IMG/VR virus record: IMGVR_UViG_3300031539_000009
Span: 1 to 64,000 of that record
Direction: 5' to 3' (one strand)
Origin: a virus
DNA length: 64,000 bases
Shown here: one piece after another, positions 8,947-32,785 of the stretch
Position numbering within the stretch: the stretch's first letter is position 1
Layout: each line of letters starts with the position of its first letter
Notes under the pieces: model-generated
Database searches by the model: none
What the model saw: only the letters and a program-made list of their open reading frames with translations
Told to the model about the DNA's origin: nothing
Program-made: the position numbers and the translations under genes

Positions 8947-9287
8947 TTGCGTGTACTCCCATTGCTCCAAAACACCTTGGCCCTCTTTTCACCCAATATC
9001 GCCTTGAGCTTGCTCCGGTGAAGCAACACAGGCAATTCCTTGGGCCACGCCGCCTTGACCCAGGAAGCATCTCCAAAATCGCTGTAATCAAAATTGATCT
9101 GATACACTTCCCTTGAAGTCAGTATCTGGTGGCCCTCCATCAATATAGCATAATCAACGTGCTTTTTCTTTTTGGGGTCAAGCATCGCCGCTGCCATGAA
9201 TGATTCAACCACCCGCCTATTCTTGTATGGCGATTTTTTAGGAATCACCCGGCCTGGTGGCCTTTGTCTTTTAATCTTCTTGCCCAT
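8943..9287 (-). CDS. Basic hypothetical protein (114 aa)
   Basis: The start MGKKIKRQRPP at 9287 follows GAGGACAGCG and overlaps the acidic tail of the previous gene. The first 30 residues are strongly basic. A later part (YAILMEGHQILTSREV, DYSDFGDASWVKAAW) looks globular. No family recognised. Confidence 0.55.
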   Translation of the reverse strand: MGKKIKRQRPPGRVIPKKSPYKNRRVVESFMAAAMLDPKKKKHVDYAILMEGHQILTSREVYQINFDYSDFGDASWVKAAWPKELPVLLHRSKLKAILGEKRAKVFWSNGSTRK

Positions 9288-9489
9288 CGCTGTCCTCACT
9301 GTCAGGGTCAGGGTGGCCTGGTTTCCCCATCACACTGCTGTTGATCACGTCCAGGATTCCTTGTCTGAAATAGCCCAAATTCCAAACCACGTTCTGCCCT
9401 TCCGTCTTGGTCATCTTTTCCGCCGCTTCCCGTCCGGCCTCATACCACTCACCTGATGCTGTTTTTTTCAATTCATCGAAGCCATCCAT
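9271..9489 (-). CDS. Acidic hypothetical protein (72 aa), first gene behind P2 copy 1
   Basis: This 72-residue protein begins MDGFDELKKTASGEW after AAAGGGGTGTCCA and ends in an acidic tail (DPDSEDSDGQED). It is the first gene downstream of P2 copy 1 and heads the chain of small overlapping genes that runs leftward. Function unknown. Confidence 0.6.
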   Translation of the reverse strand: MDGFDELKKTASGEWYEAGREAAEKMTKTEGQNVVWNLGYFRQGILDVINSSVMGKPGHPDPDSEDSDGQED

Positions 9490-9538
9490 TGGACACCCCT
9501 TTCATTGCTCATTTCCCTTCATTCTGTCTTGCACTCGT

Positions 9539-9599
9539 GTATTCAAACTTTTCAACCACTTATGCATTCACTTTCACATTCACTTTTTGCCCATTTTTG
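9539..9599 (-). promoter_or_regulatory. P2 repeat copy 1: candidate middle promoter
   Basis: A 61-base core (minus strand CAAAAATGGGCAAAAAGTGA ... AATGCATAAGTGGTTGAAAA ... ) shared with copies 2-4 at 12201, 27428 and 38106 with no length change. It lies 50 bases before the 72-aa gene. I cannot fit a sigma70 -10/-35 pair, so a phage-specific factor or activator is likely. Confidence 0.6.
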
Positions 9600-9620
9600 A
9601 ATGTTAAAGTTAATGCAGAA

Positions 9621-10541
9621 TCACTCCCCCAACGCCAACAAATCGCCCAACTTATTTGGGGATGAAAAAAAGTTGAATTTCCACTTATTCAAGATGGTCG
9701 CTTTGAACGCCTTGAAATTGCGGTCCCTGGGGAGCCAAGACAAGGTCACCTCATCCCTGAGCTTCACCAACAGCTTCGCCCGCTCCACAACATCTTGATT
9801 CCCCCGAACCAACCCCAAGTTGCGCTTGAGCTTGTGATCATCATTCTTGGGATCAATTGCGGCCACCAAGACATTGTCAACAGTCCCAAATTCTTGAATC
9901 AACTCCAATGCCCGCTTCTCACCGATTCCCCGGACCCCAGGCACGCCGTCGCTGTTGCAGCCGGTCAACGCTTTGATGTCCAAGAATTGCGCCGCCTCAA
10001 TTCCGAATTCCAGCCTGATCCGGTCTTCATCCCAAACATCTTCGCCCTTTTTCTTGGGTTGGACCAGGCGAACTCCTGGCCGAACTGCTTGAAGCAAATC
10101 AGCATCATTGGTATATATCACCACTTTGTTCCCGGCCTTGGACATTTTATTGGCCAGGGTGGCCATAACGTCATCCGCCTCATGCCTGTCGCAATATGCT
10201 TGGCGGACCCCCAACTGCCCCAACAACCGCTGCACTCTGCCCATCTGAATGCGAAGTGAATCAACCCAATATTCCATCTCGATGTCTGAGCTGTCTTTGA
10301 TCTTATACTCTGGATAGATATCACGCCTGAAATTCTGCGCCCTTTGGCACTCCCAACATATGATAGGAACACCGCCCCAATTCTTGTGAATGGCCGTGAG
10401 AACTCGCAAAAATCCATACACAGCACCAATTGCTATTTCTGCCCCGGTCTCATCGTCCACATAAGTCAGATCACGGAATGAATGACCAACTCTGAACAAC
10501 AGGTTTTTCCCGTCTATCAACAACAGGTCGCACTTCCCCAT
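9621..10541 (-). CDS. 5'-3' exonuclease / flap endonuclease
   Basis: This is a stand-alone version of the 5' nuclease domain of DNA polymerase I, 306 residues. Metal-site segments are LLIDGKNLLFR near the N-terminus, RHEADDVMATLA near 130 and YTNDADLLQ near 160. A helix-hairpin-helix (VRGIGEKRALELI) follows near 210. It should remove RNA primers or flaps for the DnaE replisome. The ATG shares its A with the stop of the NYN gene (TGATG). Confidence 0.9.
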   Translation of the reverse strand: MGKCDLLLIDGKNLLFRVGHSFRDLTYVDDETGAEIAIGAVYGFLRVLTAIHKNWGGVPIICWECQRAQNFRRDIYPEYKIKDSSDIEMEYWVDSLRIQMGRVQRLLGQLGVRQAYCDRHEADDVMATLANKMSKAGNKVVIYTNDADLLQAVRPGVRLVQPKKKGEDVWDEDRIRLEFGIEAAQFLDIKALTGCNSDGVPGVRGIGEKRALELIQEFGTVDNVLVAAIDPKNDDHKLKRNLGLVRGNQDVVERAKLLVKLRDEVTLSWLPRDRNFKAFKATILNKWKFNFFSSPNKLGDLLALGE

Positions 10542-11065
10542 CACGCCCCCCTTATGATCAACGATTCAGGAATGAAGCGCAAGCTGAATTCACTATTTGC
10601 GATCTTAGCCAGCCGTGCGGCCCATTCCATCCTCTGCTTGAACCCGCACAACTCAACCTGCTTTCCCTGCTCCAAGACCGCTTGAATCAACGGCAAGAAT
10701 GCGCTGTTGGACGCCACCAAACACAACACGTCCCATTGCGACTTTTCCTCAGATGCATCGATCACAATATTGGTATTCCAATTTGTTGTTGGCATCCCGT
10801 CAACGGCAACGCTGTCGCCCCGGCTGCGATTGTACTTGCTGTAGCAATCAATCCCCATTGCCGTCAACCTCTTTTCCAACGATTCTGACGCACGACCGTG
10901 ATGGTGAATTATGTACGCTTTGGCCACTGCCATGTCCCTTCCGTCAACCACTTCACTTATCAAGCCAGGATAGTCAATGCCAAACTTTCCGCCGCCGGAA
11001 TCCCTGACGATATCAGATGCGCCATACCACAAATTTTGAGCATCTATGTACAATCCAATATTCAC
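10541..11065 (-). CDS. NYN-domain protein with altered active site
   Basis: MNIGLYIDAQNLWYG and NWNTNIVIDA match the first acidic motifs of NYN (LabA-like PIN) RNases. The third motif, normally S-x-D-x-D-F-x-P-L, reads ASNSAFLPLI, so one or two acidic residues are lost. It may be a weak nuclease or a binding protein. It is coupled to the flap endonuclease and the RuvC-like gene, which suggests work on branched DNA or RNA. Confidence 0.8.
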   Translation of the reverse strand: MNIGLYIDAQNLWYGASDIVRDSGGGKFGIDYPGLISEVVDGRDMAVAKAYIIHHHGRASESLEKRLTAMGIDCYSKYNRSRGDSVAVDGMPTTNWNTNIVIDASEEKSQWDVLCLVASNSAFLPLIQAVLEQGKQVELCGFKQRMEWAARLAKIANSEFSLRFIPESLIIRGA

Positions 11066-11646
11066 TGTTTTTGCCTCTTGATCTTTGGTGTTTCAACCGG
11101 CCCTGAATACGGGAATTCATTTTGCATGAACCTGGCGATGAGCAAGGCATCAACCAGCCCCTCGTGCGGTTTTTTCGCCCGGTCACTTTTCCTCAAGTCC
11201 AGATTAGGATACAGCTGCCCCGCTGCCATCCTGGCCATCGCTTTGGAATCAGATTTTGGGATGCCTTTGAACATCATCCTCTGCCACTCTTGAGATCGGA
11301 ATGAAAAGAATGGAATTTCAAGGGCAACCAACATCCCCCTCCACAGACCATAATTGGAACAAAACGTGCAAGTGGCCACTGACGACTGTCCTGGCATTCC
11401 AAATGCGGCCTCAAGCCCGACCAGGATGTCACCATATGACTCTTTCATCCCGACCAACAGCCGCTTCATCTCAACTTCATCCGGCTGCCGCTTTCCGCCC
11501 TTCCCCTTTTTTCCCTTGGGCTTGAACTGAGGATTGATGACAGGAGCCACGTTGAGTTTGATCTGTCCTGATAAATCTATCGTGACCAACGCACCGTCCA
11601 GCCCTATATCCACCCCGGCCCAAGCATATGGGCTGATTATACTCAC
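11062..11646 (-). CDS. RuvC-like Holliday junction resolvase
   Basis: The RNase H-type resolvase pattern is visible: AGVDIGLDGAL (first Asp), VGLEAAFGMPG (Glu near 78) and HEGLVDALLIARF (C-terminal H...D-A). Length of 194 residues fits RuvC-type enzymes. Such enzymes cut four-way junctions made by recombination, which suits the neighbouring RecA, Mre11-Rad50 and flap nuclease genes. The start overlaps the previous stop. Confidence 0.8.
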   Translation of the reverse strand: MSIISPYAWAGVDIGLDGALVTIDLSGQIKLNVAPVINPQFKPKGKKGKGGKRQPDEVEMKRLLVGMKESYGDILVGLEAAFGMPGQSSVATCTFCSNYGLWRGMLVALEIPFFSFRSQEWQRMMFKGIPKSDSKAMARMAAGQLYPNLDLRKSDRAKKPHEGLVDALLIARFMQNEFPYSGPVETPKIKRQKQ

Positions 11647-11933
11647 CCCTGTACCCGAATCATCTCAGGGCTGAGATCACGCCAGAAATTGGCAGGATTG
11701 TGCTTCACCACCATTGGCGGACTGTTCAGCTGTGACTCCACCCGGAGCATGGCCACGATCTTGTCTTGATCATACTTCAGGACGTGGACCAAATCGTGCA
11801 AGTGTTTTTCCTGACTCATCGGAATCCGCTTGGCGGACCCGTCTTTCATCACGAACACGTGGGCCAAGGTATCCGACTTGCGGACCCTATGCCCGTCACA
11901 CACCACATCAACCGCTTCCAGATTCATTTTCAT
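11643..11933 (-). CDS. Hypothetical protein (96 aa)
   Basis: This 96-residue protein begins MKMNLEAVDVV after GGGGAAGCTA and overlaps both neighbours. The segment EKHLHDLVHVLKYDQDKIVAML is helical, the ends are beta-like. No family recognised. It lies in the resolvase-nuclease operon led by P2 copy 2. Confidence 0.6.
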   Translation of the reverse strand: MKMNLEAVDVVCDGHRVRKSDTLAHVFVMKDGSAKRIPMSQEKHLHDLVHVLKYDQDKIVAMLRVESQLNSPPMVVKHNPANFWRDLSPEMIRVQG

Positions 11934-12168
11934 TAGCTTCCCCTTTTTTCCATTCTATCCAACCCCAAACACAAGTGACGTTGAATATTGCATATGTCAA
12001 TGCGCCCTGATAGATTCCCGCCGCCCAACAGATGTACAACCAAGCTGCGTTGGCAACGAACCAAAACAAAAAACACCACCTGCTCTTTTTGATATTCAAG
12101 ATGACCCCGACCATCGTGATGGCAAACGTCGCCCACCTGAATAGCTCAGAATTTGCCATGTCATCCAT
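11908..12168 (-). CDS. Small membrane protein resembling part of PnuC
   Basis: Three hydrophobic helices are likely: WATFAITMVGVILNI, WCFLFWFVANAAWLYICW and GALTYAIFNVTCVWGWIEW. The Trp/Asn-rich pattern and ending G.Y.W are like the repeat unit of PnuC-type vitamin transporters and small SWEET-like proteins, seen in many phages. At 86 residues it would need to assemble as an oligomer. Start ATG at 12168 is placed 8 bases after AGGG; the ATG two codons earlier is too close. Confidence 0.6.
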   Translation of the reverse strand: MDDMANSELFRWATFAITMVGVILNIKKSRWCFLFWFVANAAWLYICWAAGIYQGALTYAIFNVTCVWGWIEWKKGEANENESGSG

Positions 12169-12200
12169 GCTCATTTCCCTGCATTCTATTTTGCATGTAT

Positions 12201-12288: not shown

Positions 12289-15200
12289 TCACTTGATCAT
12301 GGAATGTCCGCCGCTTTTGACCACCGTCAGGCTGTGATCAAACAACTCCACAATATCCGGGTCATGCGACACCACATAGATGGTTTCACGCATCCCTTTG
12401 ATTTGCCCTAACAAGTCCAGCACCCGGCTTTTTCCTACACGGTCCAGGCCATCCAGAACCTCATCCAAAAGCATGATATTGAAGCTGGTGAATTCCCGGC
12501 CCGCCAAGATGTCCATAAGTGCCAAACCAATGCTGAGTGATATCCGCCTCAATTGCCCGCCGGAAGGAATGACATCTGCCACGCCGTCCACATTGTATTC
12601 AATGCTGATTTTGTCCCGCTTGTCGCCGCTCTTCAACTCCGATTGTGTGGACATTTCCACCAGTATTGACCCATCAGACAATATGGACAAGTATTTATTC
12701 GACAAGCTGTTCACGGTCGGCATCACCACATCCAGAATATAACTGGGCAGACCTTGATTGCCAAATCCCTTCACCCAGAAGTCATAATGCTCAGCTTCAG
12801 ACTCAGCGTCAACCATCAACGCCCCGGCCTTGTGCTGCTGTCTCGTCAACTTGGCCAACTTGGACTTTGCTGCCGCAAGCATGTCGGTGAACTCGTTGGT
12901 CTCAGCTTCAACCGCCCGGATGTCTCGCACCTTCCCCTCAACCAACTTTTCATCCTGTTTAATCCGATCCAAGGCCTGTTTAATCCCGGACAACTCACGC
13001 TCCAGCCTGGGCAGGTCATCCAACATGTCCTGTATCTTCTGCTGCGACTCCCTGGCCTTGTCTCGTTTTTCAAGGGAAGCACGTGCACTTTTTTTCGCTT
13101 CCGTCGCCTCTGCCTCCATTTCCTCGATGCGCTTCTGGTGCTCCTGAACCTTCCCCTTCAACCCTTTGATGAACTTTTTTGTGTGGGTCCCATCTGATGG
13201 TGAGCCACACTCCGGGCATTCATCCCTTTCGGACACCCGCTTGATCTGCTCTTCAACATCAACAATGGCGTGCTTGCTGATTGAAATGGACGATGTCAGC
13301 CGGGCAACCTTCCCGCCCCAATCGGCAAATTCATCATCCCACTTCTGCGCCTCAACCTTGAACTCATCCCGCTTTCCTTTTTGACCCGTGATTTTGTCAA
13401 TTTGCCCCTCGCAAGATTCCAACGCCTCCATATTGCTTTTCCTGTCAGGAGTGCGTGCCTTGATCCGCTCAATATCACCCCGGATAACCTGGATGCGCTC
13501 TTGGCGGTTGGACTCAAAATTGTCCACTTTCCTTTTCAATGTATCTGTGTCCACTTCCCCCATCCGAACCTGCAACAGCTGAATCTTATTTGCAAGTGGA
13601 TTTATGATGTCTGCCTGCACCCTGTTACGCTCTTGCTTGGCAAACTCTTGGGCATAATCATAATCATCCAATCGCAACGCCGATTTGAGCACAGCTTTCC
13701 GGTCGGCATCGCTGGTATTGTGATCGGTGAATTTGGAGTGGTCGCCTTGGCCATACAGCACCGTGTTTCGGAAGGTCAGCATGTCCATCCCCAGCAGGTT
13801 GTTGATCCGCCCTTGGGTGTCCTTTATTGATCCGCCTGAGATGTCATCCCACTTTTTCCCGTCGCCTTGAGACAATGTGAGCTTGGTCCCCTTCCCCATA
13901 AACCTGGTCACCTTGTATTTGGTCTTATCCAGGCTGAATTCCAATGCCACCTTGGCCGATGTTATGGCCGGGTCACGGTTGACCACGTTGCTCCCCATCC
14001 CGTCCACGGTCTGCCCCCAAAGACACCAAGTCAGTGCTTTGAACAGGTTTGACTTTCCGGCCCCGTTGGAATCGGACCCGGTGCTGTCTCTGTTTTCCCC
14101 GGATATCAGAACCAAATCGTGCTTCCCGAACTGAAGCACGTTGTCCCCGCTTCCGAATGAGGCAAAGCCCTTTATGTTTATGGTGTCAAATCGCACCGCT
14201 CTGGCACGCTCTGACACTTTCATGCCTGCCTTTGTATCTCTGGATGCAATGCCACCTTCAAAACATTTCGTGCCAACCCTGATGAGCCTGACAGGGTCCA
14301 TTCCGGTCCCCTTCACCACCCCGGTGTCCTCGACATATGAACGCACCAGGTCTGATGCCGTCATACCACTCTTGATTTCGATTCTGTTCTGGTCTTGCTC
14401 TTTGGTCTCAACGTCAAGCTTGTGGGCCATCACGCCGTGCTCACGCAACTCCTGTGTCAGACCGTCTTTGTCCATCTGTCTGATCTGGTCCTTGTCGCCC
14501 ACGACTTTCACCCTGGTATATGCTCCACGGTGCTTGTAGTCGCCCAGGTTCATCGCCGGATTCCCCAAGTCAAGTTCAACGTCCAGAAACAATGGGCTGT
14601 TGTCCATCTGGTAGTGCTCGAAGTCAATCACGCCATTTTTGTCCACGTCCACGGTCATGTACCCACGCTTGGCGCTGTCCCCAAAAATCAACGGAAGCAT
14701 GGACCCTACATACACCACGTTGTCCCCGATGGTCTGTGGCTCATGAAAATGTCCTGAAAATACAGCATCCCACTGCTTCAAATATTTCGGGTCAATCCCG
14801 TCATCGCAAATCCACTTGCCAATCTTTCCGCCGATTATGGAGTGGTGCGCCAACAGGATATTCACCCGCCCCTCTGGCTTCATCGATGTGAGCCGCTGGA
14901 CGGTCTTTTCAGGGCTGGAATATGGCAAAGGATAGATGTGAACCGGAATTCCGCCGCCCCCCGTTATGTATGGAACAGAATCCCGCATCACCCGCAGATT
15001 GGGCCTCCAAAGCAGCTTGAGGATGTCCACGGAATAATGCCAGCCCGCTGAATCAAAGGCATCATGATTCCCCGGAAGGATGTGGAAAATGATGTGTGCG
15101 TACTTGGCAGACATTTCGGCCAGCTTCCCCAGAACGTACTTCATGGTGACCAAATCCACATTTTTCCTGTCAAATAAATCGCCCAGGAAAAAAATGTTTT

Positions 15201-15348
15201 CAACCCCCAATGTGTCGGCCACCACATACATATCTTCCAACAAGCTCACAGCAACGTCCAGCCGGTCCGTCAGCCCGTCCGGGTTGATCGGCTGTGCCAT
15301 TTGAAGTTGATTGCTTGCGTGCAAATCTGAACAAAGTATAAATTTCAT
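12289..15348 (-). CDS. Single-chain Mre11-Rad50 (SbcD-SbcC) fusion nuclease
   Basis: One 1019-residue frame carries both subunits. Residues 1 to about 380 are the SbcD/Mre11 phosphoesterase: CSDLHAS, LGDLFDRKN, LPGNHD, LAHHS and SGHFHEP. From about 390 it is SbcC/Rad50: Walker A SNGAGKS near 430, a coiled coil with zinc hook CPEC near 712, the second coil, signature SGGQLRRISLS near 932, Walker B IMLLDEVLDGLD near 960 and H-loop VVSHDPD. The normal pair processes DNA ends and hairpins. In T4 and bacteria the subunits are separate genes, so a fusion fixes their ratio at 1:1. It sits downstream of recA. Confidence 0.93.
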   Translation of the reverse strand: MKFILCSDLHASNQLQMAQPINPDGLTDRLDVAVSLLEDMYVVADTLGVENIFFLGDLFDRKNVDLVTMKYVLGKLAEMSAKYAHIIFHILPGNHDAFDSAGWHYSVDILKLLWRPNLRVMRDSVPYITGGGGIPVHIYPLPYSSPEKTVQRLTSMKPEGRVNILLAHHSIIGGKIGKWICDDGIDPKYLKQWDAVFSGHFHEPQTIGDNVVYVGSMLPLIFGDSAKRGYMTVDVDKNGVIDFEHYQMDNSPLFLDVELDLGNPAMNLGDYKHRGAYTRVKVVGDKDQIRQMDKDGLTQELREHGVMAHKLDVETKEQDQNRIEIKSGMTASDLVRSYVEDTGVVKGTGMDPVRLIRVGTKCFEGGIASRDTKAGMKVSERARAVRFDTINIKGFASFGSGDNVLQFGKHDLVLISGENRDSTGSDSNGAGKSNLFKALTWCLWGQTVDGMGSNVVNRDPAITSAKVALEFSLDKTKYKVTRFMGKGTKLTLSQGDGKKWDDISGGSIKDTQGRINNLLGMDMLTFRNTVLYGQGDHSKFTDHNTSDADRKAVLKSALRLDDYDYAQEFAKQERNRVQADIINPLANKIQLLQVRMGEVDTDTLKRKVDNFESNRQERIQVIRGDIERIKARTPDRKSNMEALESCEGQIDKITGQKGKRDEFKVEAQKWDDEFADWGGKVARLTSSISISKHAIVDVEEQIKRVSERDECPECGSPSDGTHTKKFIKGLKGKVQEHQKRIEEMEAEATEAKKSARASLEKRDKARESQQKIQDMLDDLPRLERELSGIKQALDRIKQDEKLVEGKVRDIRAVEAETNEFTDMLAAAKSKLAKLTRQQHKAGALMVDAESEAEHYDFWVKGFGNQGLPSYILDVVMPTVNSLSNKYLSILSDGSILVEMSTQSELKSGDKRDKISIEYNVDGVADVIPSGGQLRRISLSIGLALMDILAGREFTSFNIMLLDEVLDGLDRVGKSRVLDLLGQIKGMRETIYVVSHDPDIVELFDHSLTVVKSGGHSMIK

Positions 15349-15597: not shown

Positions 15598-16644
15598 TTA
15601 CTTTGAAGTTGCCCGCTGCTTAATTTTTGCAAGCATGGCTGCGTGCAGCTTTGGATTTTCCTCGCACCACGCCCTGAATCCTTTTTCACCATTCCACTTC
15701 CCTTTTTCGCCCATGCTGAACCAGCTGCCGCTCTGTTGGATCATCCCGACCTTTTTGCCCAAATCCAAAGTGGCCTTGACATCATCCGTCCCCTTCCCGT
15801 ACAAAATCTGAAGCTCAACACGGGCAAACGGTGGCGCCACCTGGTTCTTGGCAATGTACGCTCCGATCTTGTTGCCGATGACTTTGGCATCAGCAGCTTC
15901 GCTTTCCTTGATCATCCCTTTTTTGTAAACCTCGATGATGGTGCTGGCATAAAATTTGGGAGCATTCCCGCACGCCGTCACCCGGTCATCTCCGAACTGG
16001 ACATTCATTTTCTGCCTGACCTGGCTGATAAACAAAAGAACAGTGTTGGACACGGCCACCAACGGAATGATCTTTTTCAGGGTCTGGCTCATCACGCCCG
16101 CCCCCGGCGCATAATGCTTCTGCTCATAATCCCCCTCAAGTTCAGCCTTGGTGGAAGATGCGTTCAAGGAATCAAACACGATGAGCAACGGAACATCTTT
16201 GGTCTTTTGGTGTATCTTCACAGCTGTTTCAATTACAGCCATGCATTTTTCCATATATGGCGGTTGCGATATGATGACCCGGTCGGTGTCCACTCCCAAC
16301 TTTTTCGCATATGCCAAGTCCAATTTGTGCTCCATGTCCATGTACAGGACTGCGCCGCCTTTCCTTTGCGCTTCAGCCGCCAGCTGGAGTGCTATGGTGG
16401 TCTTGCCGCCCGCTTCCGGCCCATAGATCATTGTCAATCGACCATATGGGACTCCCCAGACGCCAATGGCGTGGTCCAGCACGGGGTTGCCCGTTGATAG
16501 GACACCCCGCAGCTGGACCGATGGGCCACCGGCCCCGATGAGTTGAGCAGTTTCCTTTCCGTGATCCTTGATGATCCCTTCCAAGAGTGCTTCAACAGCA
16601 CCGGTGTTATTGGCGTCACCGTTTTGTTTTTGCCTGGTGACCAT
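15598..16644 (-). CDS. recA: RecA recombinase
   Basis: The RecA core is complete: Walker A GPEAGGKTT (75-83), MDMEHKLD, Walker B LLIVFDSLNA near 155, FISQVRQK and the loop-2 stretch KNQVAPPF. At 348 residues it has normal RecA length and looks bacterial rather than UvsX-like. It drives strand exchange with the phage ssDNA-binding protein encoded just upstream. The start ATG shares a base with the upstream stop (TAATG). Confidence 0.95.
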   Translation of the reverse strand: MVTRQKQNGDANNTGAVEALLEGIIKDHGKETAQLIGAGGPSVQLRGVLSTGNPVLDHAIGVWGVPYGRLTMIYGPEAGGKTTIALQLAAEAQRKGGAVLYMDMEHKLDLAYAKKLGVDTDRVIISQPPYMEKCMAVIETAVKIHQKTKDVPLLIVFDSLNASSTKAELEGDYEQKHYAPGAGVMSQTLKKIIPLVAVSNTVLLFISQVRQKMNVQFGDDRVTACGNAPKFYASTIIEVYKKGMIKESEAADAKVIGNKIGAYIAKNQVAPPFARVELQILYGKGTDDVKATLDLGKKVGMIQQSGSWFSMGEKGKWNGEKGFRAWCEENPKLHAAMLAKIKQRATSK

Positions 16645-17663
16645 TATTCCTTGGACCTTGAGGCCAATTCCTTTTCAAGCTCATCAAGCTCAGGGTCAAC
16701 ATCATCCGCTTCCGCAGCTTTCTGTCGCTTGGGTTTGACCTCTTTTTTGGGTTTGGCAGCTTCCGATCCGCCGCCGCACTTCACCTTGCAGGCATCGACC
16801 ACGCTGCATTTTTCGCACTCGTCAGACCCGGACTCATACATCAGCCCATAGCACTCCGGGTTGCCGTCGCCGGTATCAGCCGGTGCCGACTCTTCTGTGG
16901 CAATCCCGACCAACAACGCTTCCACCTCAGCCCTCGACACAAACGTGTTCTTGGCAGCAAAGGCGAACAGGTTGGACTCGTGATCCCACTCGGACCCCTT
17001 CATGATGAGGGCACGCTGCGGCTTGGTCGGCTTGTATGCCCGGTCCAATCCAATGTTGTACTTGGTCGTGATCCCGGTCCCCGTCCTGGTGAGTTTGACC
17101 AGCTGCGCATCGTCCATGTCGGTGATGTCGCCGTTGTCCTCGATGACCCCTGAAATGCCCTCATATACGGTCTTGCCGCATTCATAGGGCTGAAGCTTGT
17201 CAGGCTGGGCAGGGCTGTAATCATCGCCGGATTTTTTGCGTGCTTCAACTGCGATGACTTTCCACAGGTATCTGGATTGGAACCTCTTGTCCATGGCCTG
17301 ATCCTTGTCGGTGGCCCACAGGCCAGGATCATCTTTGCTGGTCCCGTCCAACGCTTCGCAGACCGGGCAACCGCCGCTCACGTCCACACCCGCTTCTTTG
17401 AGTGCTCTCAACATCGCCGGGTGCTTCAGGATGTGATTCCTGGCCAAATTAAGGCAACCAGCACCTTGCTTCCCTGTCGGTCCAAGACCATAATGGACAC
17501 CGACATCCAGAAAGTTGAAGCCATCGGTCAACTCGTGCTCATCCATCCCGGCCTGGGGTGGCGCCAGATACAGCCTGGTGTCCCCCTCATCCGGCACAAA
17601 GCCACGACCGCCCCCGGCCTTTTCCTGACGATATTTTTTCATCTTTCCTACATTCAAACCCAT
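16644..17663 (-). CDS. Single-stranded DNA-binding protein (gp32-like)
   Basis: The 339 residues have a basic N-terminus (KMKKYRQEKAGGGRGF), a core with Cys residues (CPVCEAL, CEKCSVVDACKVKCG) that could bind zinc, and a Lys-rich then acidic tail (DDVDPELDELEKELASRSKE). Acidic tails are typical of phage SSBs. The position directly before recA supports the call. I see no strict consensus motif, so the assignment rests on layout. Start follows GGAGGTGACAAG. Confidence 0.7.
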   Translation of the reverse strand: MGLNVGKMKKYRQEKAGGGRGFVPDEGDTRLYLAPPQAGMDEHELTDGFNFLDVGVHYGLGPTGKQGAGCLNLARNHILKHPAMLRALKEAGVDVSGGCPVCEALDGTSKDDPGLWATDKDQAMDKRFQSRYLWKVIAVEARKKSGDDYSPAQPDKLQPYECGKTVYEGISGVIEDNGDITDMDDAQLVKLTRTGTGITTKYNIGLDRAYKPTKPQRALIMKGSEWDHESNLFAFAAKNTFVSRAEVEALLVGIATEESAPADTGDGNPECYGLMYESGSDECEKCSVVDACKVKCGGGSEAAKPKKEVKPKRQKAAEADDVDPELDELEKELASRSKE

Positions 17664-17687: not shown

Positions 17688-18149
17688 TTAGACTTTTTGT
17701 TTGGTTTTGACAGGTGCCTTGGTGTTAAGACCTGTGGCCCCCATCTCTTCACGCATCAATGCCCCGCTGGACTGAAGCACGCTCACCTTGGCCCGGAATC
17801 CGTTATACACAGACCAAAGTGACTCGGCATTCCCCTTGGCCTCTGATATCTTTTCAGTGAATGTTTGATATTCCGGCCTTGCCTCAACAATGGCCTTGGT
17901 TTTCCATTCTGCCAACTTGGGGTCAGCGGCCAATATTTCCTGTCTGATCTTGGCTTTCCAGCCGGTGAATTCAGCATCCAGCTTTGCTACCAAAGCATTG
18001 GCCCCCGCCGCCTGTGAGCCATAATAGCCAATTTGCACCGCCACTTTTTTCATGTCCTGGTTGAGATCGGTGATCATCAACGCTTCCGTGACATCTTGTT
18101 CTTGCCACCCGCTTGGGGTGACCACGTTCACCTTCACCTCATATTTCAT
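17688..18149 (-). CDS. Helical hypothetical protein (153 aa)
   Basis: After a beta-like start (MKYEVKVNVVTPSGWQEQDV) the protein is mostly long helices with coiled-coil character (about 45-130). The tail is basic (KAPVKTKQKV). It lies between HU and the ssDNA-binding protein in the same operon, so a role in DNA transactions is likely but unproven. The start overlaps the HU stop by 11 bases. Confidence 0.6.
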   Translation of the reverse strand: MKYEVKVNVVTPSGWQEQDVTEALMITDLNQDMKKVAVQIGYYGSQAAGANALVAKLDAEFTGWKAKIRQEILAADPKLAEWKTKAIVEARPEYQTFTEKISEAKGNAESLWSVYNGFRAKVSVLQSSGALMREEMGATGLNTKAPVKTKQKV

Positions 18150-18399
18150 CCTTTGCCACCCTTTCCTTGAGCTTTCCGTGCGCTCTGAAAATAATCGTGC
18201 GATATGGTTTGCACTGTACTTTTTCGCCGGTCATCGGGTTGAGCGCCACTCGCTGCTTGACCGACTTGATTCTGAAAGTGCCGAACCCCATCACCTTCAC
18301 CTCACCGCCGTTGTCACAAATTTCGACGATGGCATCAAATACTTTATCCACATCCTGCAAGCTCAACCCGCTTTTTTCTGCCACAGCCGCCCTTGACAT
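18139..18399 (-). CDS. HU/IHF-family DNA-binding protein
   Basis: The 86-residue protein follows the HU/IHF layout: an N-terminal helix pair (AAVAEKSGLSLQDVDKVFDA), GGEVKVMGFGTFRIK, and the DNA-clasping arm with LNPMTGEKVQCKP (family R-x-P-x-T/M-G). It bends DNA and may help replication or packaging. Start follows GGAGGTATAAGAA. It is transcribed after the polymerase gene. Confidence 0.92.
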   Translation of the reverse strand: MSRAAVAEKSGLSLQDVDKVFDAIVEICDNGGEVKVMGFGTFRIKSVKQRVALNPMTGEKVQCKPYRTIIFRAHGKLKERVAKDEI

Positions 18400-18452: not shown

Positions 18453-21400
18453 TTAAAAAGCCCGCCCGACATGGACCACGGCCTGTACGATATATGACTG
18501 TTTGTACTTGTCGCTTTTTTGTTTCTCAACTTGCATTATCACAATATCACCAGTGGTCAACTTATCTTGATTTGGCTCATACAAATCGTTGAAGCAGAGC
18601 AACGAACCTACTGCGCCGCCGCCCGGACCCGTCAAGGTCAGAAAAGCCATCATGCCATTCTTGGCCTCATGCCGCTTGCAATCGGTCACCATTCCATATA
18701 TCAACGCCTCAGCCCCGTGTGCTGTTTTGGCCAGCCGCTTGAACGGATTTGCCTTGACCAGTTTTTCACCTTTTTCCTTCCATTCCTCCACCAGCTGATC
18801 CCTTTCAGACGGTCCCAAATGTATGGCATCCCTGGCTTCCCTTTCCCCTTCCGACACCATCAAATCAACAGCAATGCGACTGTAACGCTCCAATGGGTCC
18901 TCAAAAAAGTACATCTCATATGGATTCAGGCCTGACCGCTCTGGCTTTCCTTCCGCCGTCGCCGTCGCAATCTTGTTCTCAACATCGTCCAGATCAGCCA
19001 TGAACTGTACACGCATCGTCTTGGACTTAGCAAACAACGACACCTTCATGGCCACGCACGTCCCGATTCCCTTTTCAATAATGGGCCTGAACTCATCGAA
19101 CTTATCAATGTCCAGCTTAATCCTCCAATGGACATGCGTCTCATCCTGGACGTTGAAATTGCTGTACCTCTTTTTCCAACCAATCCGGTCCTTTTCCGCC
19201 TGATCCGGCTCTGTGGTGTGGAAGTCACCGACCTGGTTGAAGCGGACATCGATGATTTGCCCTCTGATGAACGCATCGCCACCATCCCAAGGCAATTGAT
19301 CCAATGGGCTGAATTTGATGTGCGGACCGAACTGATCCAACAGGTCATCGTACAACTCAACCGGATGCTTGTCCATTGGAAGCGGGCACACATCTATCGA
19401 CATGCGCACCAGCATCTCTGGTGTGAAATCTTCTTCACTGGCCGACTGGGCCAGCACCTTATCAACGCTGTCATATTCGTGTTTGTCGCAGTACTTCAGA
19501 AGTGTCTCGACATTCTCCAAAAAAAACTTGACGTTGGGAATCAAACCGGTGAACGCCCCGGCCTTGACTAACATCTCAACGGACCGCTTGTTCACATATG
19601 ACTTTCCCACCCGCTTCCTGAAATTGCCGAATGAGGTGAACTCGCCATCCTTGTCCCGCTCCAACTCAATTTTTTCGATTCCCTTATTGGTCACCCACTT
19701 GATCTTATTCAAAGCAAATATGATCCGGCTCTTGCTATCTATCCTGAAGTGTTTGTTGCTGTGATTAATGTGGGGTTTGATAATCTCCACCCCCAGCCTT
19801 TCCGCTTCCTGTATAGTCCTGGCCGCTGTTTCTGAATCAGGCTCATGCTTGAGTAAAGCCCACATGAATTCCACAGGATAGTACACTTTGAGCCACATCT
19901 CCCAATAAGCAATGGCCGCATATGCGACTGCGTGCGATTTGTTAAAGCCATATGAACCAAAGAATACAATGGAGTCAAACAGCTTCGCCGCCTTTCCCTT
20001 TTCCATCCCGATCTTGGCCGCCCCCTCCATGAATCGGTCCTTTTCCTTGGTTATGACTTCCACGCCCGCCTTTTTGGCAATATCCTTCCTGAGTGAGTCA
20101 GCCGTTCCAGGCTCATATCCGCCGATCTGCTTAAAAATCTGAATGACCTGCTCCTGGTACACGATGACGCCATATGTCGGCCCGGTAATGGCATCATATG
20201 CTGGGTGTATTTTTTCCCACTTCGCCCCGTTTTTGCGCTCCACATACTTGGTCGCCAGACCGGACCTTGCTGTGCCCGGCCTGTTCAACGCATTCATGGC
20301 GGCCACGTCCTCAAATGAGTCAAATGTAATCGCTTCAGCCAGGTTGAACATCGATGTCGTGTCATACTGGAATATCCCAGCAAACTGTCTGTCTGTGAAC
20401 GATTTGAACACCTTGTCATCGTCCATCGGCATCCCTTCCAGATCAATTTCCTTCCCGTGTCGCCGCTTAATTTCACCCAGACAGTCCCCGACCACGGACA
20501 GGTTGCGCAACCCCAAAACATCCAACTTGAGCAACCCAAAATCTGTGCACCCCCAAAAATCCACTGCTGTACAGGGTGTGACCGCCTTGTCTGTTTTCTG
20601 TACCTCCATCGGAACAATGGTGGACAGTTTCCTGGGTCCAATCACAACCCCGGCTGCGTGGACCCCTTTCTGGCGTGCCTGTCCTTCCAAAGACATCACC
20701 AGTGGCAATATTTCAGGGTGTCTGGCGTTAAACTCCTGGCACACCTTAAACTCTTTGAATGAATCCTGAACGGTCTGGCTGGCCCGCTCATCGCCGGATG
20801 ACCTCTCAACAATGCTGTTGGTGACCTGCGCCACCTCATTCATGTGTATTTTATGGACCCTGGAGACATCCCTCAGACATTGCTTCCCTTTCAATGTTCC
20901 CACGGTCCCGATCAATGAAGTGTTTTCCGCCCCATACCTATCAATCAAATAATCAATGACTTCTTGGCGCCGAACGTCCTCAAAATCCATATCAATATCA
21001 GGCATGTCTATCCGGCCCGGACTCATGAACCTTTCAAACAACAATTCATGCTCCACCGGGTCAACCGATGTGATGCCCAACAAGAATGACACCAAACATC
21101 CCGCCGCCGAACCACGACCAGGACCAACTACCATTTCCTGTTTCCGCACCCACTTGTAAAGATCATGGACAATCAGGAAATATCGCTCAAACTTGCTTCC
21201 CAAAATTGCCCTCATTTCCATTGACACCCGCTCTGAATATATCCTGATGGCATCCTCATAGCTGATGTGACGATTCCTGGCCAGTCGCCTGGCACGCTCT
21301 GGCACGTTGCGCCACGCCCAGCCATCCTTACACAACTGAAATATGTATTGCTTTTCCGTCAATCCGGCTGGCACCTCAACGTCCGGCAGAATACAGGCGA

Positions 21401-22346
21401 ACTTGTCCAGCTTTAAGTCCACATTACAACGCTCAGATAGTTGGACGGAATTGTCCATCATCTCGAACATGTCACCCTTTTCTATCCACGGGTGATATCT
21501 GCGGACTGCCCCCATCATTTCCTTGGGAGTGCGAAACCAAAAATCATGGGTGTCAAATTTGAAACGATTGGGGTCATCTAAGGTCTGTTTGAATTGAAGG
21601 CACATCAGGACTTCTTGCTGCAACCAATCATCCGGCCTGAGATAATGAACATCATTGGTCAGGATGGGCTTGAACCCGAACTGCTTGGCCATTTTCAAGA
21701 TATACTGATTGGACTCATCCTGGCCATCTATTTCGTTGGGCATCACCTCGCCATACACTCGATCAGGCCCAAAAATATCCAACAACTTTTTCAGGTGCCT
21801 GGCCGCTTTCCGGTGATCGCCCTCCAGGAATGGCTTGCTGAGTATTCCGCCAACGCACGCCGTCCCGACCATTATGCCCTCTTGATGCTTTTCCAAAACT
21901 TCCCAATCAACTCTGGGCCTATTGCGATACAAGCCAGTGAGCCAACCTTCCGATGTCAGCTGGAATAGATTGCTCAATCCTGTTTCGTTCATGGCCCAAG
22001 CGCACAAATGCCATGTCTCGCTGATTCCCAATTCCCTTTCCCTGTCCTTCACCCACTTGCGCCGCTGCCCTGAAGGAATGTCTTGCGCCAACGCTTTTTC
22101 CTCTTCAGGCAACGCTGTCTTGCGCCGGTCGCCGGTGACATACAGTTCACAACCATAAACCGGCTTCACGCCCGCCCCTTTGGCTGCCTTGTGGAACCTG
22201 TAAACACCACGCATTGATCCGTGGTCGGTCATCGCCACCCTTTCGTGACCAGCTTCTTTGGCCCGCTCCATAAGATCGGTGACCCGGCCCACACCGTCTA
22301 ACAGGCTGAACTCGGTGTGTAGGTGGGCATGGAAGTGATATGGCAT
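18453..22346 (-). CDS. dnaE: DNA polymerase III alpha subunit (DnaE type)
   Basis: A 1297-residue family C polymerase. The N-terminal PHP domain keeps metal residues (HAHLHTEFSLLDG, AMTDHGS, YGCELYV, VHYLRPDD). The polymerase core has GPGRGSAAG near 410, MPDIDMDFED near 445 and KLDVLGL near 607, giving the three catalytic Asp. The fingers and helix-hairpin-helix follow, and an OB fold lies at about 1215-1290 (EALIYGMVTDCKRHEA). There is no exonuclease domain. Large contractile-tailed phages usually carry family A or B enzymes, so this is unusual. Start follows GAGGTAAAAA. Confidence 0.95.
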   Translation of the reverse strand: MPYHFHAHLHTEFSLLDGVGRVTDLMERAKEAGHERVAMTDHGSMRGVYRFHKAAKGAGVKPVYGCELYVTGDRRKTALPEEEKALAQDIPSGQRRKWVKDRERELGISETWHLCAWAMNETGLSNLFQLTSEGWLTGLYRNRPRVDWEVLEKHQEGIMVGTACVGGILSKPFLEGDHRKAARHLKKLLDIFGPDRVYGEVMPNEIDGQDESNQYILKMAKQFGFKPILTNDVHYLRPDDWLQQEVLMCLQFKQTLDDPNRFKFDTHDFWFRTPKEMMGAVRRYHPWIEKGDMFEMMDNSVQLSERCNVDLKLDKFACILPDVEVPAGLTEKQYIFQLCKDGWAWRNVPERARRLARNRHISYEDAIRIYSERVSMEMRAILGSKFERYFLIVHDLYKWVRKQEMVVGPGRGSAAGCLVSFLLGITSVDPVEHELLFERFMSPGRIDMPDIDMDFEDVRRQEVIDYLIDRYGAENTSLIGTVGTLKGKQCLRDVSRVHKIHMNEVAQVTNSIVERSSGDERASQTVQDSFKEFKVCQEFNARHPEILPLVMSLEGQARQKGVHAAGVVIGPRKLSTIVPMEVQKTDKAVTPCTAVDFWGCTDFGLLKLDVLGLRNLSVVGDCLGEIKRRHGKEIDLEGMPMDDDKVFKSFTDRQFAGIFQYDTTSMFNLAEAITFDSFEDVAAMNALNRPGTARSGLATKYVERKNGAKWEKIHPAYDAITGPTYGVIVYQEQVIQIFKQIGGYEPGTADSLRKDIAKKAGVEVITKEKDRFMEGAAKIGMEKGKAAKLFDSIVFFGSYGFNKSHAVAYAAIAYWEMWLKVYYPVEFMWALLKHEPDSETAARTIQEAERLGVEIIKPHINHSNKHFRIDSKSRIIFALNKIKWVTNKGIEKIELERDKDGEFTSFGNFRKRVGKSYVNKRSVEMLVKAGAFTGLIPNVKFFLENVETLLKYCDKHEYDSVDKVLAQSASEEDFTPEMLVRMSIDVCPLPMDKHPVELYDDLLDQFGPHIKFSPLDQLPWDGGDAFIRGQIIDVRFNQVGDFHTTEPDQAEKDRIGWKKRYSNFNVQDETHVHWRIKLDIDKFDEFRPIIEKGIGTCVAMKVSLFAKSKTMRVQFMADLDDVENKIATATAEGKPERSGLNPYEMYFFEDPLERYSRIAVDLMVSEGEREARDAIHLGPSERDQLVEEWKEKGEKLVKANPFKRLAKTAHGAEALIYGMVTDCKRHEAKNGMMAFLTLTGPGGGAVGSLLCFNDLYEPNQDKLTTGDIVIMQVEKQKSDKYKQSYIVQAVVHVGRAF

Positions 22347-23404: not shown

Positions 23405-24592
23405 TTATTTCAGGAAGCTGTTGTGGGTGTCCAGGATTGCTTTCAGGCCATCCTGCAACTCCAACGGTGATATGTTGAGCGGTGGGGTGATCTTGATCTG
23501 TCCCTTTGGTCTGAACGTGGCGATGAGCAGACCGAACTCCCTGGCCCGCTCTGCGAACTGATAACCATCATATCCAAAGCTGTCGAACCTTGGCAAAATT
23601 CCCCAGTGGACTCCCACGCCATCGATGGTCTCAATCCAATCCTGGGCTGTGAAAAAATCCTCCATGATTTTGCTTGTGTCTCGAATGTGCTGCAGCCCGC
23701 CGTCCTCAAGCCAATCCAATAAAATCAAATTGGCCTCACAAACAAACGGACCGCCGCCGAATGTGGTGTAATGCGTCCTGGGCGCCAACGTCCCGGAACA
23801 CTTGGGAGTGGCCAAACAAGCTGACATCGGATAACCCAACGCAATTCCTTTTCCCAAGGTCAAAACATCAGGTTGAATCCCAAAATATTCCCCGGCTGTG
23901 TACGTCCCGGTCCTGCCCATCCCCACCTGGACCTCATCGAATATGAGCAAGATGTCATGGGTGTCGCAGAATTCACGGACCTCTTTCAACAGCCCTTCCC
24001 GATGCAGACGAACCTCATTGTTGCCCGATATGGGCGACATGAAAATGGCAGCCACGTCACCAGGCACCAGGTCGCTCAATTCCTTGAAGAATGTGAACCC
24101 GGTTGGCATCGGTCCAAATCCTTCTTTGTGATATGGTGAATCCCTGGAATCCGTCGCCGCCAAAGACCAACCGGTGCGACCTGCAAACTGCCCCTCAATC
24201 GAAGCAATTATGCACTTGTCATTCCCTTTGTCGTGCTGATATTTGCGGGCCAGCTTGATGGCTGTCTCGTTGGCTTCCGTCCCGGAATTAGCAAAAAACA
24301 CCTTGTCCATTCCCGTGACTCGGCACAACCTTTCTGCGCACTCCCATCTGGTAGGGTGCGGCAGCATGTCTGCCAGCTGGTGCGGCTTTCCGGCTTCAAG
24401 GAAATTGGTCAGCCGATTTATGACCATCTGATTGCCATACCCCAACGATATTGTCCCGACATCAGCGCACATGTCAATGAATTCATGGCCATCCTCTGTG
24501 TATAGTTTGGCCCCTTCCCCGCCACCGATCACCAATGGCAACCGATTTATGGTGGGCATCAGGTGCCCGTCCATTTGCCTTTCATCCATCAT
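23405..24592 (-). CDS. Class III PLP-dependent aminotransferase
   Basis: All fold-type I class III marks are present: FFANSGTEANETAIKLAR (about 100-117), IFDEVQVGMGRTG (Asp 219) and TLGKGIALGYPMS with the PLP-binding Lys near 248. At 395 residues the length suits ArgD, ornithine and glutamate-semialdehyde enzymes. Such enzymes normally move amino groups in amino-acid or polyamine metabolism, which is odd in a phage. Start MMDERQ overlaps the ThyX stop (ATGA). It may act on a free amine or on a modified nucleotide. Confidence 0.88.
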   Translation of the reverse strand: MMDERQMDGHLMPTINRLPLVIGGGEGAKLYTEDGHEFIDMCADVGTISLGYGNQMVINRLTNFLEAGKPHQLADMLPHPTRWECAERLCRVTGMDKVFFANSGTEANETAIKLARKYQHDKGNDKCIIASIEGQFAGRTGWSLAATDSRDSPYHKEGFGPMPTGFTFFKELSDLVPGDVAAIFMSPISGNNEVRLHREGLLKEVREFCDTHDILLIFDEVQVGMGRTGTYTAGEYFGIQPDVLTLGKGIALGYPMSACLATPKCSGTLAPRTHYTTFGGGPFVCEANLILLDWLEDGGLQHIRDTSKIMEDFFTAQDWIETIDGVGVHWGILPRFDSFGYDGYQFAERAREFGLLIATFRPKGQIKITPPLNISPLELQDGLKAILDTHNSFLK

Positions 24593-25536
24593 CTCACTTT
24601 CACCCCCGTCCAAGGATCACGCCCCCAATATTCACGATATTCACCCACACGCTGCTTGCCCATGGGGTTGTAATCCCGCTCCACTTCAGCCGGATCAAGA
24701 CCGGCCACCAATTTGGCGTACATCGGGCAAACTGGCAAAGCATCCTCACCCGTCACACGCCTTTCATTTTCGTGCTCGAATTTGCAGCCGCCGAACTCTT
24801 CATTGCAGATGCACGGTGGCGTGGCCATTTCTGAGAATATCGGGTGAACCTTGGTGGCGCACTCTTTGATCATCCCCCGGATAACCGGCCCCCACAACCC
24901 CAGCTGAAGTATCCAACACGACCTTTTGCCCACGATATGGAGCATGCTGTTGACGTTCATCGTCCAACTGATCCGGTGCTGCGCCCCCAACGGAATCAGG
25001 TCACGGGCATCTTCCATAGGCACGCCCGCTTCCACCAGCCTGTTGTACATATCCTGAATCCTCTTCATGGTGTCGCCATATTCACGATACAGGTCAGGCC
25101 TGGTCTTGCCTAACTGGCGGATGGTGTTGGCCTTGCGATACATTCCCTGGTCTGCGAACGTCCCCATGTTCTGAATCCGCATCGACTGGCTCCAATAGCT
25201 GGAACTGACCAAATCAGGAATGAGGTCAACTCCGATGCGGTCATCATGCTTGTGCCCGACTCGGTGACGGACCGCTTGCTCACGCCAACTGACGCTCACG
25301 CCCTCCATCATGAAGTTGAAATAAATGGACTCACTGACCGGAATGTTCTGGGCCACGACCTTCCTGAACAATTCCAGCAACCCATCGTCACCCATGGGGT
25401 CATCCGGGTCACGCTTCCCGGCCTTCACTTCATCCACCGTCAACAGCGGATTTTCAGACTTGCTTGCCCACCAGATTATGTACAGTGTCTCCAGCGGGTC
25501 ATTTGTGTTACTGATCAATCTCACCCTTGGTTCCAT
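24589..25536 (-). CDS. Divergent ThyX-like flavin-dependent thymidylate synthase
   Basis: The core WREQAVRHR (84-92) matches the ThyX R-H-R motif, and ARDLIPLGAQHRISWTMNVN followed by a helix matches the second half. Yet the usual Ser 7 residues after R-H-R is absent: VGHKHDD is followed by Arg, and a Ser cluster (SSSYWSQSMR) comes about 12 residues late. The H-x-S...E-H region reads PVSESIYFNF. A C-terminal extension has CIC...C...C. It may methylate dUMP or make a related C5-substituted dUMP. Start follows GGAGGTATCAAA. Confidence 0.8.
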   Translation of the reverse strand: MEPRVRLISNTNDPLETLYIIWWASKSENPLLTVDEVKAGKRDPDDPMGDDGLLELFRKVVAQNIPVSESIYFNFMMEGVSVSWREQAVRHRVGHKHDDRIGVDLIPDLVSSSYWSQSMRIQNMGTFADQGMYRKANTIRQLGKTRPDLYREYGDTMKRIQDMYNRLVEAGVPMEDARDLIPLGAQHRISWTMNVNSMLHIVGKRSCWILQLGLWGPVIRGMIKECATKVHPIFSEMATPPCICNEEFGGCKFEHENERRVTGEDALPVCPMYAKLVAGLDPAEVERDYNPMGKQRVGEYREYWGRDPWTGVKVR

Positions 25537-30597: not shown

Positions 30598-32634
30598 TTA
30601 GGCCATGAGGTATTTTATGATCATCTTGAAAAGCTTGGCCGGAAGATCACCCACGCTGTTGACCACGTCCCAGTCAGGGTAAAAATTCCGCACGTGATCG
30701 GTCTGAATTCCCAGCCCATAAACCTCGATGCCCGCATCAGATATTTCCTTGACCACGTCCCTGGTGGCCTGATACTGCTTGTAATTGTCCCCAATGCTGA
30801 CGTTGGGCTTTCCGTCGCTGAGGACTATCATGATCTTGCGGTGCTGGGGTTGAGCCGCCAGCCGCTTTGCCGTGTGCATGATCGCTTCTGAATCAACGTT
30901 GCAGCCGTTGGTGTCCATCATCGCAATCCTGGTCTTCACAGTGGCATTGAACTTTTCCCCGAACGCCTTGTGGGTGTAGTGGGTGATCCCAACAAATCTG
31001 TTGTAATATTTCATTTCCTCTTTGGGCTCATCCCACGCACTATATCCGGCCCGATAAGTGTGATGTCCGCAAATCTCGAAAGGAATGTTCAGGCCATTCA
31101 ACGCTTCCGCAATCGCTATCATCCCGACCTTGGCGTGTCCAATCCTGTTATCACGACCGCTCATGGACCCGCTCTGGTCAACCAGGATGCTCACGGCCAC
31201 GTCCAACTTCTGTCCTGGCATCGTCTTGGTGAACACTCTTTTGTTTCCGGTCTTGGTGCTGTAAAGTGTGGAAGGATCAATTTGACCATTTTCCTGGTCG
31301 CCCACCCGGACCGCCTGAGCCTTGACCTTGAGCAGCGTGGTGAGTCTGGCCTTGAGTGCTCCGGTGGCCTTTCCCGCTTCCGTTTTGAGTCTGCTGTAGT
31401 GGTCCAGGGCTGCGCTGTCTGATGAGGTGTGGGTGCGAACGTCCCACTTGTCCCGGTCCAAAACCTTGGGTGAGGGGATGTGATCGTTGCTGCGCTTGGC
31501 CAACTCCATCGCCTTGGTCTTCAGTTCATCTTTGATCTTCTGCTTGAGATCGGTCTCAGTGGGCTTGGGCTGCTCTTTTTCCGCTTGCTCCAAGATGTCC
31601 AGTGCTTCCTGAGTGGCCTGGGGCATCCCATTCCCGCTGGCACCGCTCTCATCGCTGTTGGGATTTGAGGTGAAATCTTCATCGGTCCCCTTCCCCTTGC
31701 CGCTTCCGTCCTGGTCGCCGCCCATATCATCGCCATCGTGCTCTGCGGACAATCCGGCATCAACACCCTGGTCGCCGTCCTGCTCCTGCTCGGTGTCCTG
31801 CTCGGTGTCCTGGTCGCCGTCCTGGTCGCCGTCCTGGTCCTGGTCGCCGTCCTGGTCCGCTTCCCCTTTGCCGTCCTGGTCCTGGTCGCCGTCCTGGTCC
31901 TGGTCGCCGTCCTGGTCCTGGTCGCCGTCCTGGCCTTGTTCGTCTTGCTCGGTGTTTCCCTGTTCCTTGTCGCCCTGCTCCTGGTCGCCGCTTCCCTGAT
32001 TCTGCCCCAACTCATCCTTGGCATCACTCAGTCTGCCCAAGATGTCAGTGACCAGCTGGTCAACGTCCGCCGGTGCCTCAACGGTTTTGGCCCGCTCTAT
32101 TTCCGGCTGAATTTTGTCCAAGATCAGGTTGTATGACTCAGGAAGCCAGGAAGTGGATCTGCCGGTGGCCCGGAAGGAAAGCCCAATGGCGATGATGTAG
32201 TTGGGGTTGGCCTGTCCTGGATTGGCGCTTAATTCTTTGACCAAATCGCTGGTGAGCCTATCATTCATGGTGTCCAGGTTGGTGGCCACTCCCGGATAAC
32301 GTGCGCTGAGGCTGCGCTCTATTCTGGTGTCCTCGATGGCGTTGAAAAACACTTTGTATTTGGGGGTGGCCGCTCTCATGTAGTCTAATGGGGTGCGCTG
32401 TCCCTGGGCTTTCCAAATTTCCTCTTGCTCGATGTGGCCCCACTCGTGATCCAACAGACCTTCCATGACCGCCTGATCCGCCCCTTTGAACTTGTCTGCG
32501 TTGGCAGGAAGGTAGATGGTGGCCCCGTCAGTGGCGCAATTCAGCGTCTGGGTGTTGACGTGGACCGTGGCCCGCTTGCTGAACGTCCGGGCGATTTTTT
32601 CCCACTTGCTTTCCATGGTTCTTTTTGCTTTCAT
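30598..32634 (-). CDS. CobT-like VWA-domain protein
   Basis: The start MKAKRTMESKW at 32634 follows AAGGGGACACGAAA and lies after the P1 -10 box. Near residue 65 is HEWGHIEQE, an HExxH zinc-peptidase-like motif. The middle (about 230-330) is a simple QDGDQD acidic repeat, as in cobaltochelatase CobT. From about 470 is a VWA domain with MIDAS motif LVDQSGSMSG and a later LSDGKPN. With a CobS-like ATPase next door this is a MoxR-VWA pair; in phages its role is unknown, and cobalamin synthesis is unlikely. Confidence 0.88.
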   Translation of the reverse strand: MKAKRTMESKWEKIARTFSKRATVHVNTQTLNCATDGATIYLPANADKFKGADQAVMEGLLDHEWGHIEQEEIWKAQGQRTPLDYMRAATPKYKVFFNAIEDTRIERSLSARYPGVATNLDTMNDRLTSDLVKELSANPGQANPNYIIAIGLSFRATGRSTSWLPESYNLILDKIQPEIERAKTVEAPADVDQLVTDILGRLSDAKDELGQNQGSGDQEQGDKEQGNTEQDEQGQDGDQDQDGDQDQDGDQDQDGKGEADQDGDQDQDGDQDGDQDTEQDTEQEQDGDQGVDAGLSAEHDGDDMGGDQDGSGKGKGTDEDFTSNPNSDESGASGNGMPQATQEALDILEQAEKEQPKPTETDLKQKIKDELKTKAMELAKRSNDHIPSPKVLDRDKWDVRTHTSSDSAALDHYSRLKTEAGKATGALKARLTTLLKVKAQAVRVGDQENGQIDPSTLYSTKTGNKRVFTKTMPGQKLDVAVSILVDQSGSMSGRDNRIGHAKVGMIAIAEALNGLNIPFEICGHHTYRAGYSAWDEPKEEMKYYNRFVGITHYTHKAFGEKFNATVKTRIAMMDTNGCNVDSEAIMHTAKRLAAQPQHRKIMIVLSDGKPNVSIGDNYKQYQATRDVVKEISDAGIEVYGLGIQTDHVRNFYPDWDVVNSVGDLPAKLFKMIIKYLMA

Positions 32635-32674
32635 TTTCGTGTCCCCTTTTGTGTTTTTTCCGGCCATGTTTAAT

Positions 32675-32785
32675 ATCATAGCTGATCTTGAATGAAAAGG
32701 CAAGAAAAAAAACACCCAAGGTCCAAACTTTTTTTACAATATCCATAAATCCAACAAGTTACAAGACAACTTTTTTTTGGTGTAG
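32675..32785 (-). promoter_or_regulatory. P1 repeat copy C: sigma70-type promoter
   Basis: TTGCCT (32703-32698), 17 bases, TATGAT (32680-32675) on the minus strand. A-tracts and CTACACCAAAAAAAAGT are conserved with the same 104-base spacing. The 257-base gap between CobS- and CobT-like genes holds only this element and a short GGGTGC/GCACCC hairpin across the CobS stop. Confidence 0.85.

Follow-up and report, generated by a model that had tools for sequence, protein, structure and literature searches.

Mre11 (SbcD) and Rad50 (SbcC) ordinarily form an M2R2 complex. The roles of gp46/47 and UvsX in phage T4 have been summarised (PMC3175470), and the E. coli SbcCD complex adopts differing configurations in its ATP-bound state and in the cutting state bound to a DNA end (PMC7260605). 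Yoshida et al. (2011) described proteins in which the two subunits are fused, encoded by Mimivirus, Bacillus phage 0305phi8-36, plasmids, bacteria, and eukaryotes, and suggested a recurrent origin (PMC3175470). In the Thermotoga maritima complex, the Mre11 and Rad50 ends to be joined lie about 28 Angstrom apart, and a linker of 9-12 residues was estimated to be sufficient for the ordinary Mre11-Rad50 contact (PMC3175470). Among open-licence papers, we found no later survey of phage Mre11/Rad50 fusions.

The window considered here is a stretch of 64,000 nucleotides from an 82 kb IMG/VR virus record (IMGVR_UViG_3300031539_000009). Genes for tail sheath, tape measure, and baseplate proteins indicate a contractile-tailed phage. 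On the minus strand, a single frame of 1019 residues without internal stop encodes SbcD/Mre11 in its N-terminal third and SbcC/Rad50 in the remainder, as judged from Pfam, PHROG, and NCBIfam matches (Table 1). The frame begins with ATG at 15348, which overlaps the TGA stop of the preceding 114-aa ORF (TGATG), and ends with the stop at 12289-12291; an additional in-frame GTG lies at 15351. We read the product as a phage Mre11-Rad50 fusion protein that acts as an M2R2 dimer in end processing for recombination-dependent replication, and that derives from an overlapping sbcD-sbcC gene pair (probability roughly 0.88).

Table 1. Features of the fusion gene and its neighbours (window coordinates)
Feature	Position	Strand	Evidence
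5'-3' exonuclease	9621..10544	-	Pfam PF02739 1.9e-27, PF01367 2.2e-17
Holliday junction resolvase (RuvC-like)	11062..11646	-	phrog_1770 9.3e-17
Mre11-Rad50 (SbcD-SbcC) fusion gene, 1019 aa	12289..15348	-	frame; Pfam and PHROG matches
SbcC/Rad50 ATPase with coiled coil, residues 384-1019	12292..14199	-	phrog_77, AAA_23
ABC signature PSGGQ, residues 928-932 (S929-G-G-Q932)	12553..12567	-	sequence, motif columns
Zinc hook CPEC, C711-P-E-C714	13207..13218	-	sequence, motif columns, AlphaFold2 model
Walker A DSNGAGKS, residues 426-433	14050..14073	-	sequence, motif columns
Inter-domain linker, residues ~375-383 (~9 residues)	14200..14226	-	last Mre11 helix to first Rad50 strand, model
Predicted Rad50-binding helix-loop-helix, residues 331-374	14227..14358	-	AlphaFold2 model; tails of split relatives
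SbcD/Mre11 nuclease and capping region, residues 1-342	14323..15348	-	phrog_100, Pfam Metallophos, motif columns
114-aa ORF, directly upstream; 57% in L002	15348..15692	-	frame, comparison with L002
RecA/UvsX-type recombinase	15598..16644	-	Pfam RecA 2.8e-67, phrog_97
gp32-like single-strand DNA binding protein	16644..17663	-	phrog_1192 1.2e-13; Pfam gp32 9.2e-06, slightly below cut-off
HU-like DNA-binding protein	18139..18399	-	Pfam PF00216 1.5e-16
DNA polymerase III alpha-type polymerase	18453..22346	-	phrog_405 4.6e-289

An earlier note on this DNA had proposed one polypeptide containing SbcD/Mre11 followed by SbcC/Rad50, which the uninterrupted frame and the family matches bear out. The novelty that it implied fell away: such fusions have been known since 2011, and the window protein joins them as another example. 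Moreover, a search of predicted viral structures returned full-length counterparts from many giant viruses (Tupanvirus, Catovirus, Harvfovirus, Yasminevirus, Tetraselmis virus) and from Tenacibaculum phages. What is added here is the setting: the syntenic relatives are mostly split, several with overlapping genes, and the fused form is scattered among them.

Both halves are identified by profile searches. Pfam places Metallophos at residues 1-204 (2.5e-11) and AAA_23 at residues 390-596 (1.1e-16). Phage SbcD (phrog_100) matches residues 1-342 (3e-42) and phage SbcC (phrog_77) residues 379-1017 (6.8e-94), and with these matches the assignment of each half holds. The NCBIfam scores fall below the thresholds for canonical bacterial proteins, both for SbcD (TIGR00619, 24.7 bits against a cut-off of 77.65) and for SbcC (TIGR00618, 84.9 bits against 478.5). 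The full motif sets claimed previously, including CPEC and SGGQ, were all located. In the Mre11 half, the motifs D8-x-H10, G56-D57, G93-N94-H95-D96, H168, and G199-H200-x-H202 supply all seven nuclease metal ligands (D8, H10, D57, N94, H168, H200, and H202). The Rad50 half has its complete set: Walker A, Q-loop (Q534), zinc hook CxxC, signature, Walker B (D962-E963), D-loop (D969), and H-loop (H995). Catalytic columns are kept across the aligned relatives with two exceptions: H10, which is Gln in the fused relative L008, and Q534, whose column also contains stray nuclease-half rows. In L008 (5962-9087), Mre11 motif I reads DWQ rather than DLH, and this exchange of a metal-binding His for Gln may alter its nuclease.

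The protein was modelled with AlphaFold2 on a 69-row alignment (A5; IMG/VR loci, rows trimmed), giving a mean pLDDT of 87, compared with 51 for a three-sequence input; the pTM of 0.55 means that the arrangement of the Mre11 and Rad50 parts with respect to each other is unreliable, and the capping/linker region 260-330 is poorly modelled. The model contains a complete Mre11 phosphoesterase, followed by helices at residues 331-342 and 352-374 and by the first Rad50 strand at residue 384; the zinc hook is flanked on either side by a predicted coiled-coil arm about 140 residues long. Fold searches against the PDB matched Mre11-Rad50 structures, among them E. coli SbcCD (7yzp). Residues 331-374 are the counterpart of the C-terminal tail in split SbcD proteins. 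The modelled protein has both the capping/helix-loop-helix region and the 9-12 residue linker of known fusions. The linker region (pLDDT about 69-86) lies at about residues 375-383, not at 380-395 as had been placed earlier. Because its modelled length approximates the published estimate, the usual contact within one chain is permitted and a new geometry is not implied. The forced dimer geometry of the earlier note is not supported: the fusion joins ends that already lie near each other in the T. maritima complex. Its argument from a fixed subunit ratio is likewise weak, because the ordinary complex already has that composition.

The same fusion occurs in an independent contig, L002 (IMGVR_UViG_3300035158_000284), where the protein again has 1019 residues and is 76% identical without a single gap. 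A DNA pattern search with the junction sequence matched L002 alone. Between the two genes, dN is 0.16 and dS 1.0 overall; for residues 345-395 the values are 0.15 and 0.47. The fused gene is under purifying selection, and coding constraint is continuous across the junction. At the junction, composition is coding-like, no intergenic remnant is visible, the SbcD tail helix runs straight into the first Rad50 strand, and the remaining two frames contain several stops. The fusion is real at this locus.

The strongest of the alternatives, itself improbable, is that translation also begins internally, at GTG378, so that free Rad50 is made alongside the fusion and the two would form a mixed complex. 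This codon lies where the two domains meet and is kept in L002, and AAGG stands in the Shine-Dalgarno window of both genes. However, valine is encoded most often by GTG here, Shine-Dalgarno-like letters also accompany six other in-frame starts that are conserved, and the nearby ATG376 is replaced by ACA in L002. Nor is synonymous conservation at the junction exceptional. An RNA element or internal gene had been considered there from an apparently low dS at residues 370-390, and was rejected when permutation placed the strongest windows elsewhere (p 0.11).

The fusion gene lies in a recombination/replication cassette. Upstream, along the direction of the genes, come Pol III alpha, HU, a 153-aa protein, the gp32-like SSB, RecA, and the 114-aa ORF; downstream follow an 88-aa protein, a 96-aa ORF, the RuvC-like resolvase, a NYN protein, and the 5'-3' exonuclease. 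Gene order in L002 is as in the window, and the order Pol III alpha, p153, SSB, RecA, SbcD, SbcC is common to the distant phages L008, L091, L092, L094, and L095. This setting bears on a second and very improbable alternative, in which the protein is no recombination nuclease but an SMC-like defence component such as Lamassu LmuB. The PADLOC LmuB model does match the Rad50 half (2.5e-24), but the phage SbcC family scores far more strongly, the N-terminal half is SbcD and not a Lamassu effector, and a cassette position kept in relatives suits a phage Mre11-Rad50 protein; membership in Lamassu was set aside.

Several other genes were noted in passing. The 88-aa protein directly after the fusion (11908-12174, minus strand) matches the NMN transporter family PF04973 over about 40% of the family model. 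The window also encodes, on the minus strand, a 705-aa protein matching phage CobT-like cobaltochelatase families (30598-32715) and an aminotransferase-like protein (23405-24613), which L002 has too. Intein-like inserts that start with Cys and end with His-Asn occur at the Walker A site of RecA in L011 (3310-5661) and L014 (4109-5995), where they are long, and in Pol III alpha of L095 (3-4862).

Least probable of all, an assembly or sequencing error that joined two genes into one frame has an apparent precedent in a 1009-aa fusion of Listeria phage LMTA-57, but would have to recur identically in two assemblies and would not account for the coding-like, directly continuous junction; since L002 carries the same fusion independently and without an indel, a sequencing slip between the halves is ruled out. 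The LMTA-57 gene (L003; KJ591605.1, 59521-62550) is annotated as a single recombination exonuclease, and its product is the top match in the viral structure library. Comparison with the 97% identical List-36 finds one A missing at the junction; what is read through there corresponds to intergenic DNA in that phage. The LMTA-57 fusion thus probably reflects two genes run together by the loss of a single base, and is unsafe to count unchecked.

The genuine fusion of the window has mostly split relatives. Among the best 80 SbcC relatives of one viral scan, a sample (some duplicating earlier loci) and not a frequency, 77 encode SbcD and SbcC as separate frames, L221 and L229 are fused, and one is unassigned. 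Scans of the genome collection gave zero fused relatives with query A1, and with query A3 only distant or separate SbcD and SbcC. In six split relatives (L091, L092, L094, L162, L166, and L209), the sbcD stop overlaps the sbcC start in TGATG or ATGA fashion. Split SbcD proteins end in a matching helix, and split SbcC proteins begin a few residues before the first strand; the fusion therefore retains both ends almost whole. In L095, the nearest split relative of the fused L008, two small ORFs lie between SbcD and SbcC (about 9128-9640).

A quick tree of 54 rows, built from phage and viral-contig sequences only, sets the window protein and L002 apart from L008, which adjoins the split L095. An AU test on this tree rejected a single clade of fused members (p about 1e-6), for a group chosen after the sequences had been seen. 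With L221 and L229 added, the fused or split label requires four changes, at least three of them forced by starred branches, in a count blind to gain versus loss. The fused members are scattered in these trees, which suggests that fusion has probably recurred; the ambiguity of gain and loss, several long branches, the post hoc choice of group, and the single contigs behind L008, L221, and L229 make repeated fusion likely rather than proven. We lean toward the broader proposal that, in one phage lineage with a conserved gene order, SbcD and SbcC have become fused on several independent occasions, starting from overlapping genes whose translation was coupled.

These results suggest a model for the fusion protein. 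It most likely originated when the reading frame shifted slightly where the stop and start of an sbcD-sbcC pair overlap. Two chains would dimerise through their ABC heads, Mre11 nuclease domains, and zinc hook into an ordinary M2R2 complex, in which each Mre11 helix-loop-helix would bind the coiled-coil base of Rad50 in the same chain. The dimer would bind DNA ends, with ATP hydrolysis by Rad50 driving trimming and opening, and the processed ends would then allow the gp32-like SSB and RecA to begin strand invasion and recombination-dependent replication. Such a role in end resection and tethering, like that of T4 gp46/47, is likely; we infer it from gene context and by analogy with gp46/47, gp32, and UvsX. 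Catalysis, dimer geometry, and the exact fusion event are likewise presumed.

The value of the locus is comparative. Closely syntenic phages carry the pair in split form, several with overlapping ends, which makes the transition from operon to fusion accessible to study. If fusion has indeed occurred repeatedly and independently, these phages offer a natural series for the effect of covalent linkage on Mre11-Rad50. In addition, a one-chain complex of this length, whose coiled coil is short, lends itself well to structural work on Mre11-Rad50, because the ratio and pairing of the subunits are set by the single chain.

How does the window protein compare with known systems? Like Mimivirus R555, the Bacillus phage 0305phi8-36 protein, and the C. 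kluyveri and Deferribacter plasmid proteins, it places an N-terminal Mre11 and a C-terminal Rad50 in one chain; it further shares with them a short linker, a viral or plasmid setting, and a scattered, apparently recurrent origin. It is smaller than R555 (1019 versus 1351 aa) and has all of its ligands, whereas two conserved active-site residues are replaced in R555 as described (PMC3175470). The capping/helix-loop-helix part, reported as absent from the Bacillus phage protein (PMC3175470), is present here. Bacterial SbcCD is alike in fold and motifs, but the window protein is fused and scores under the NCBIfam cut-offs. The likeness to T4 gp47/gp46 and phage SbcD/SbcC (PHROG 100/77) extends to domains, motifs, the short coiled coil, and adjacent recombinase and SSB genes; the difference is that T4, as the earlier note rightly had it, and most of the relatives examined use two genes where the window phage uses one.
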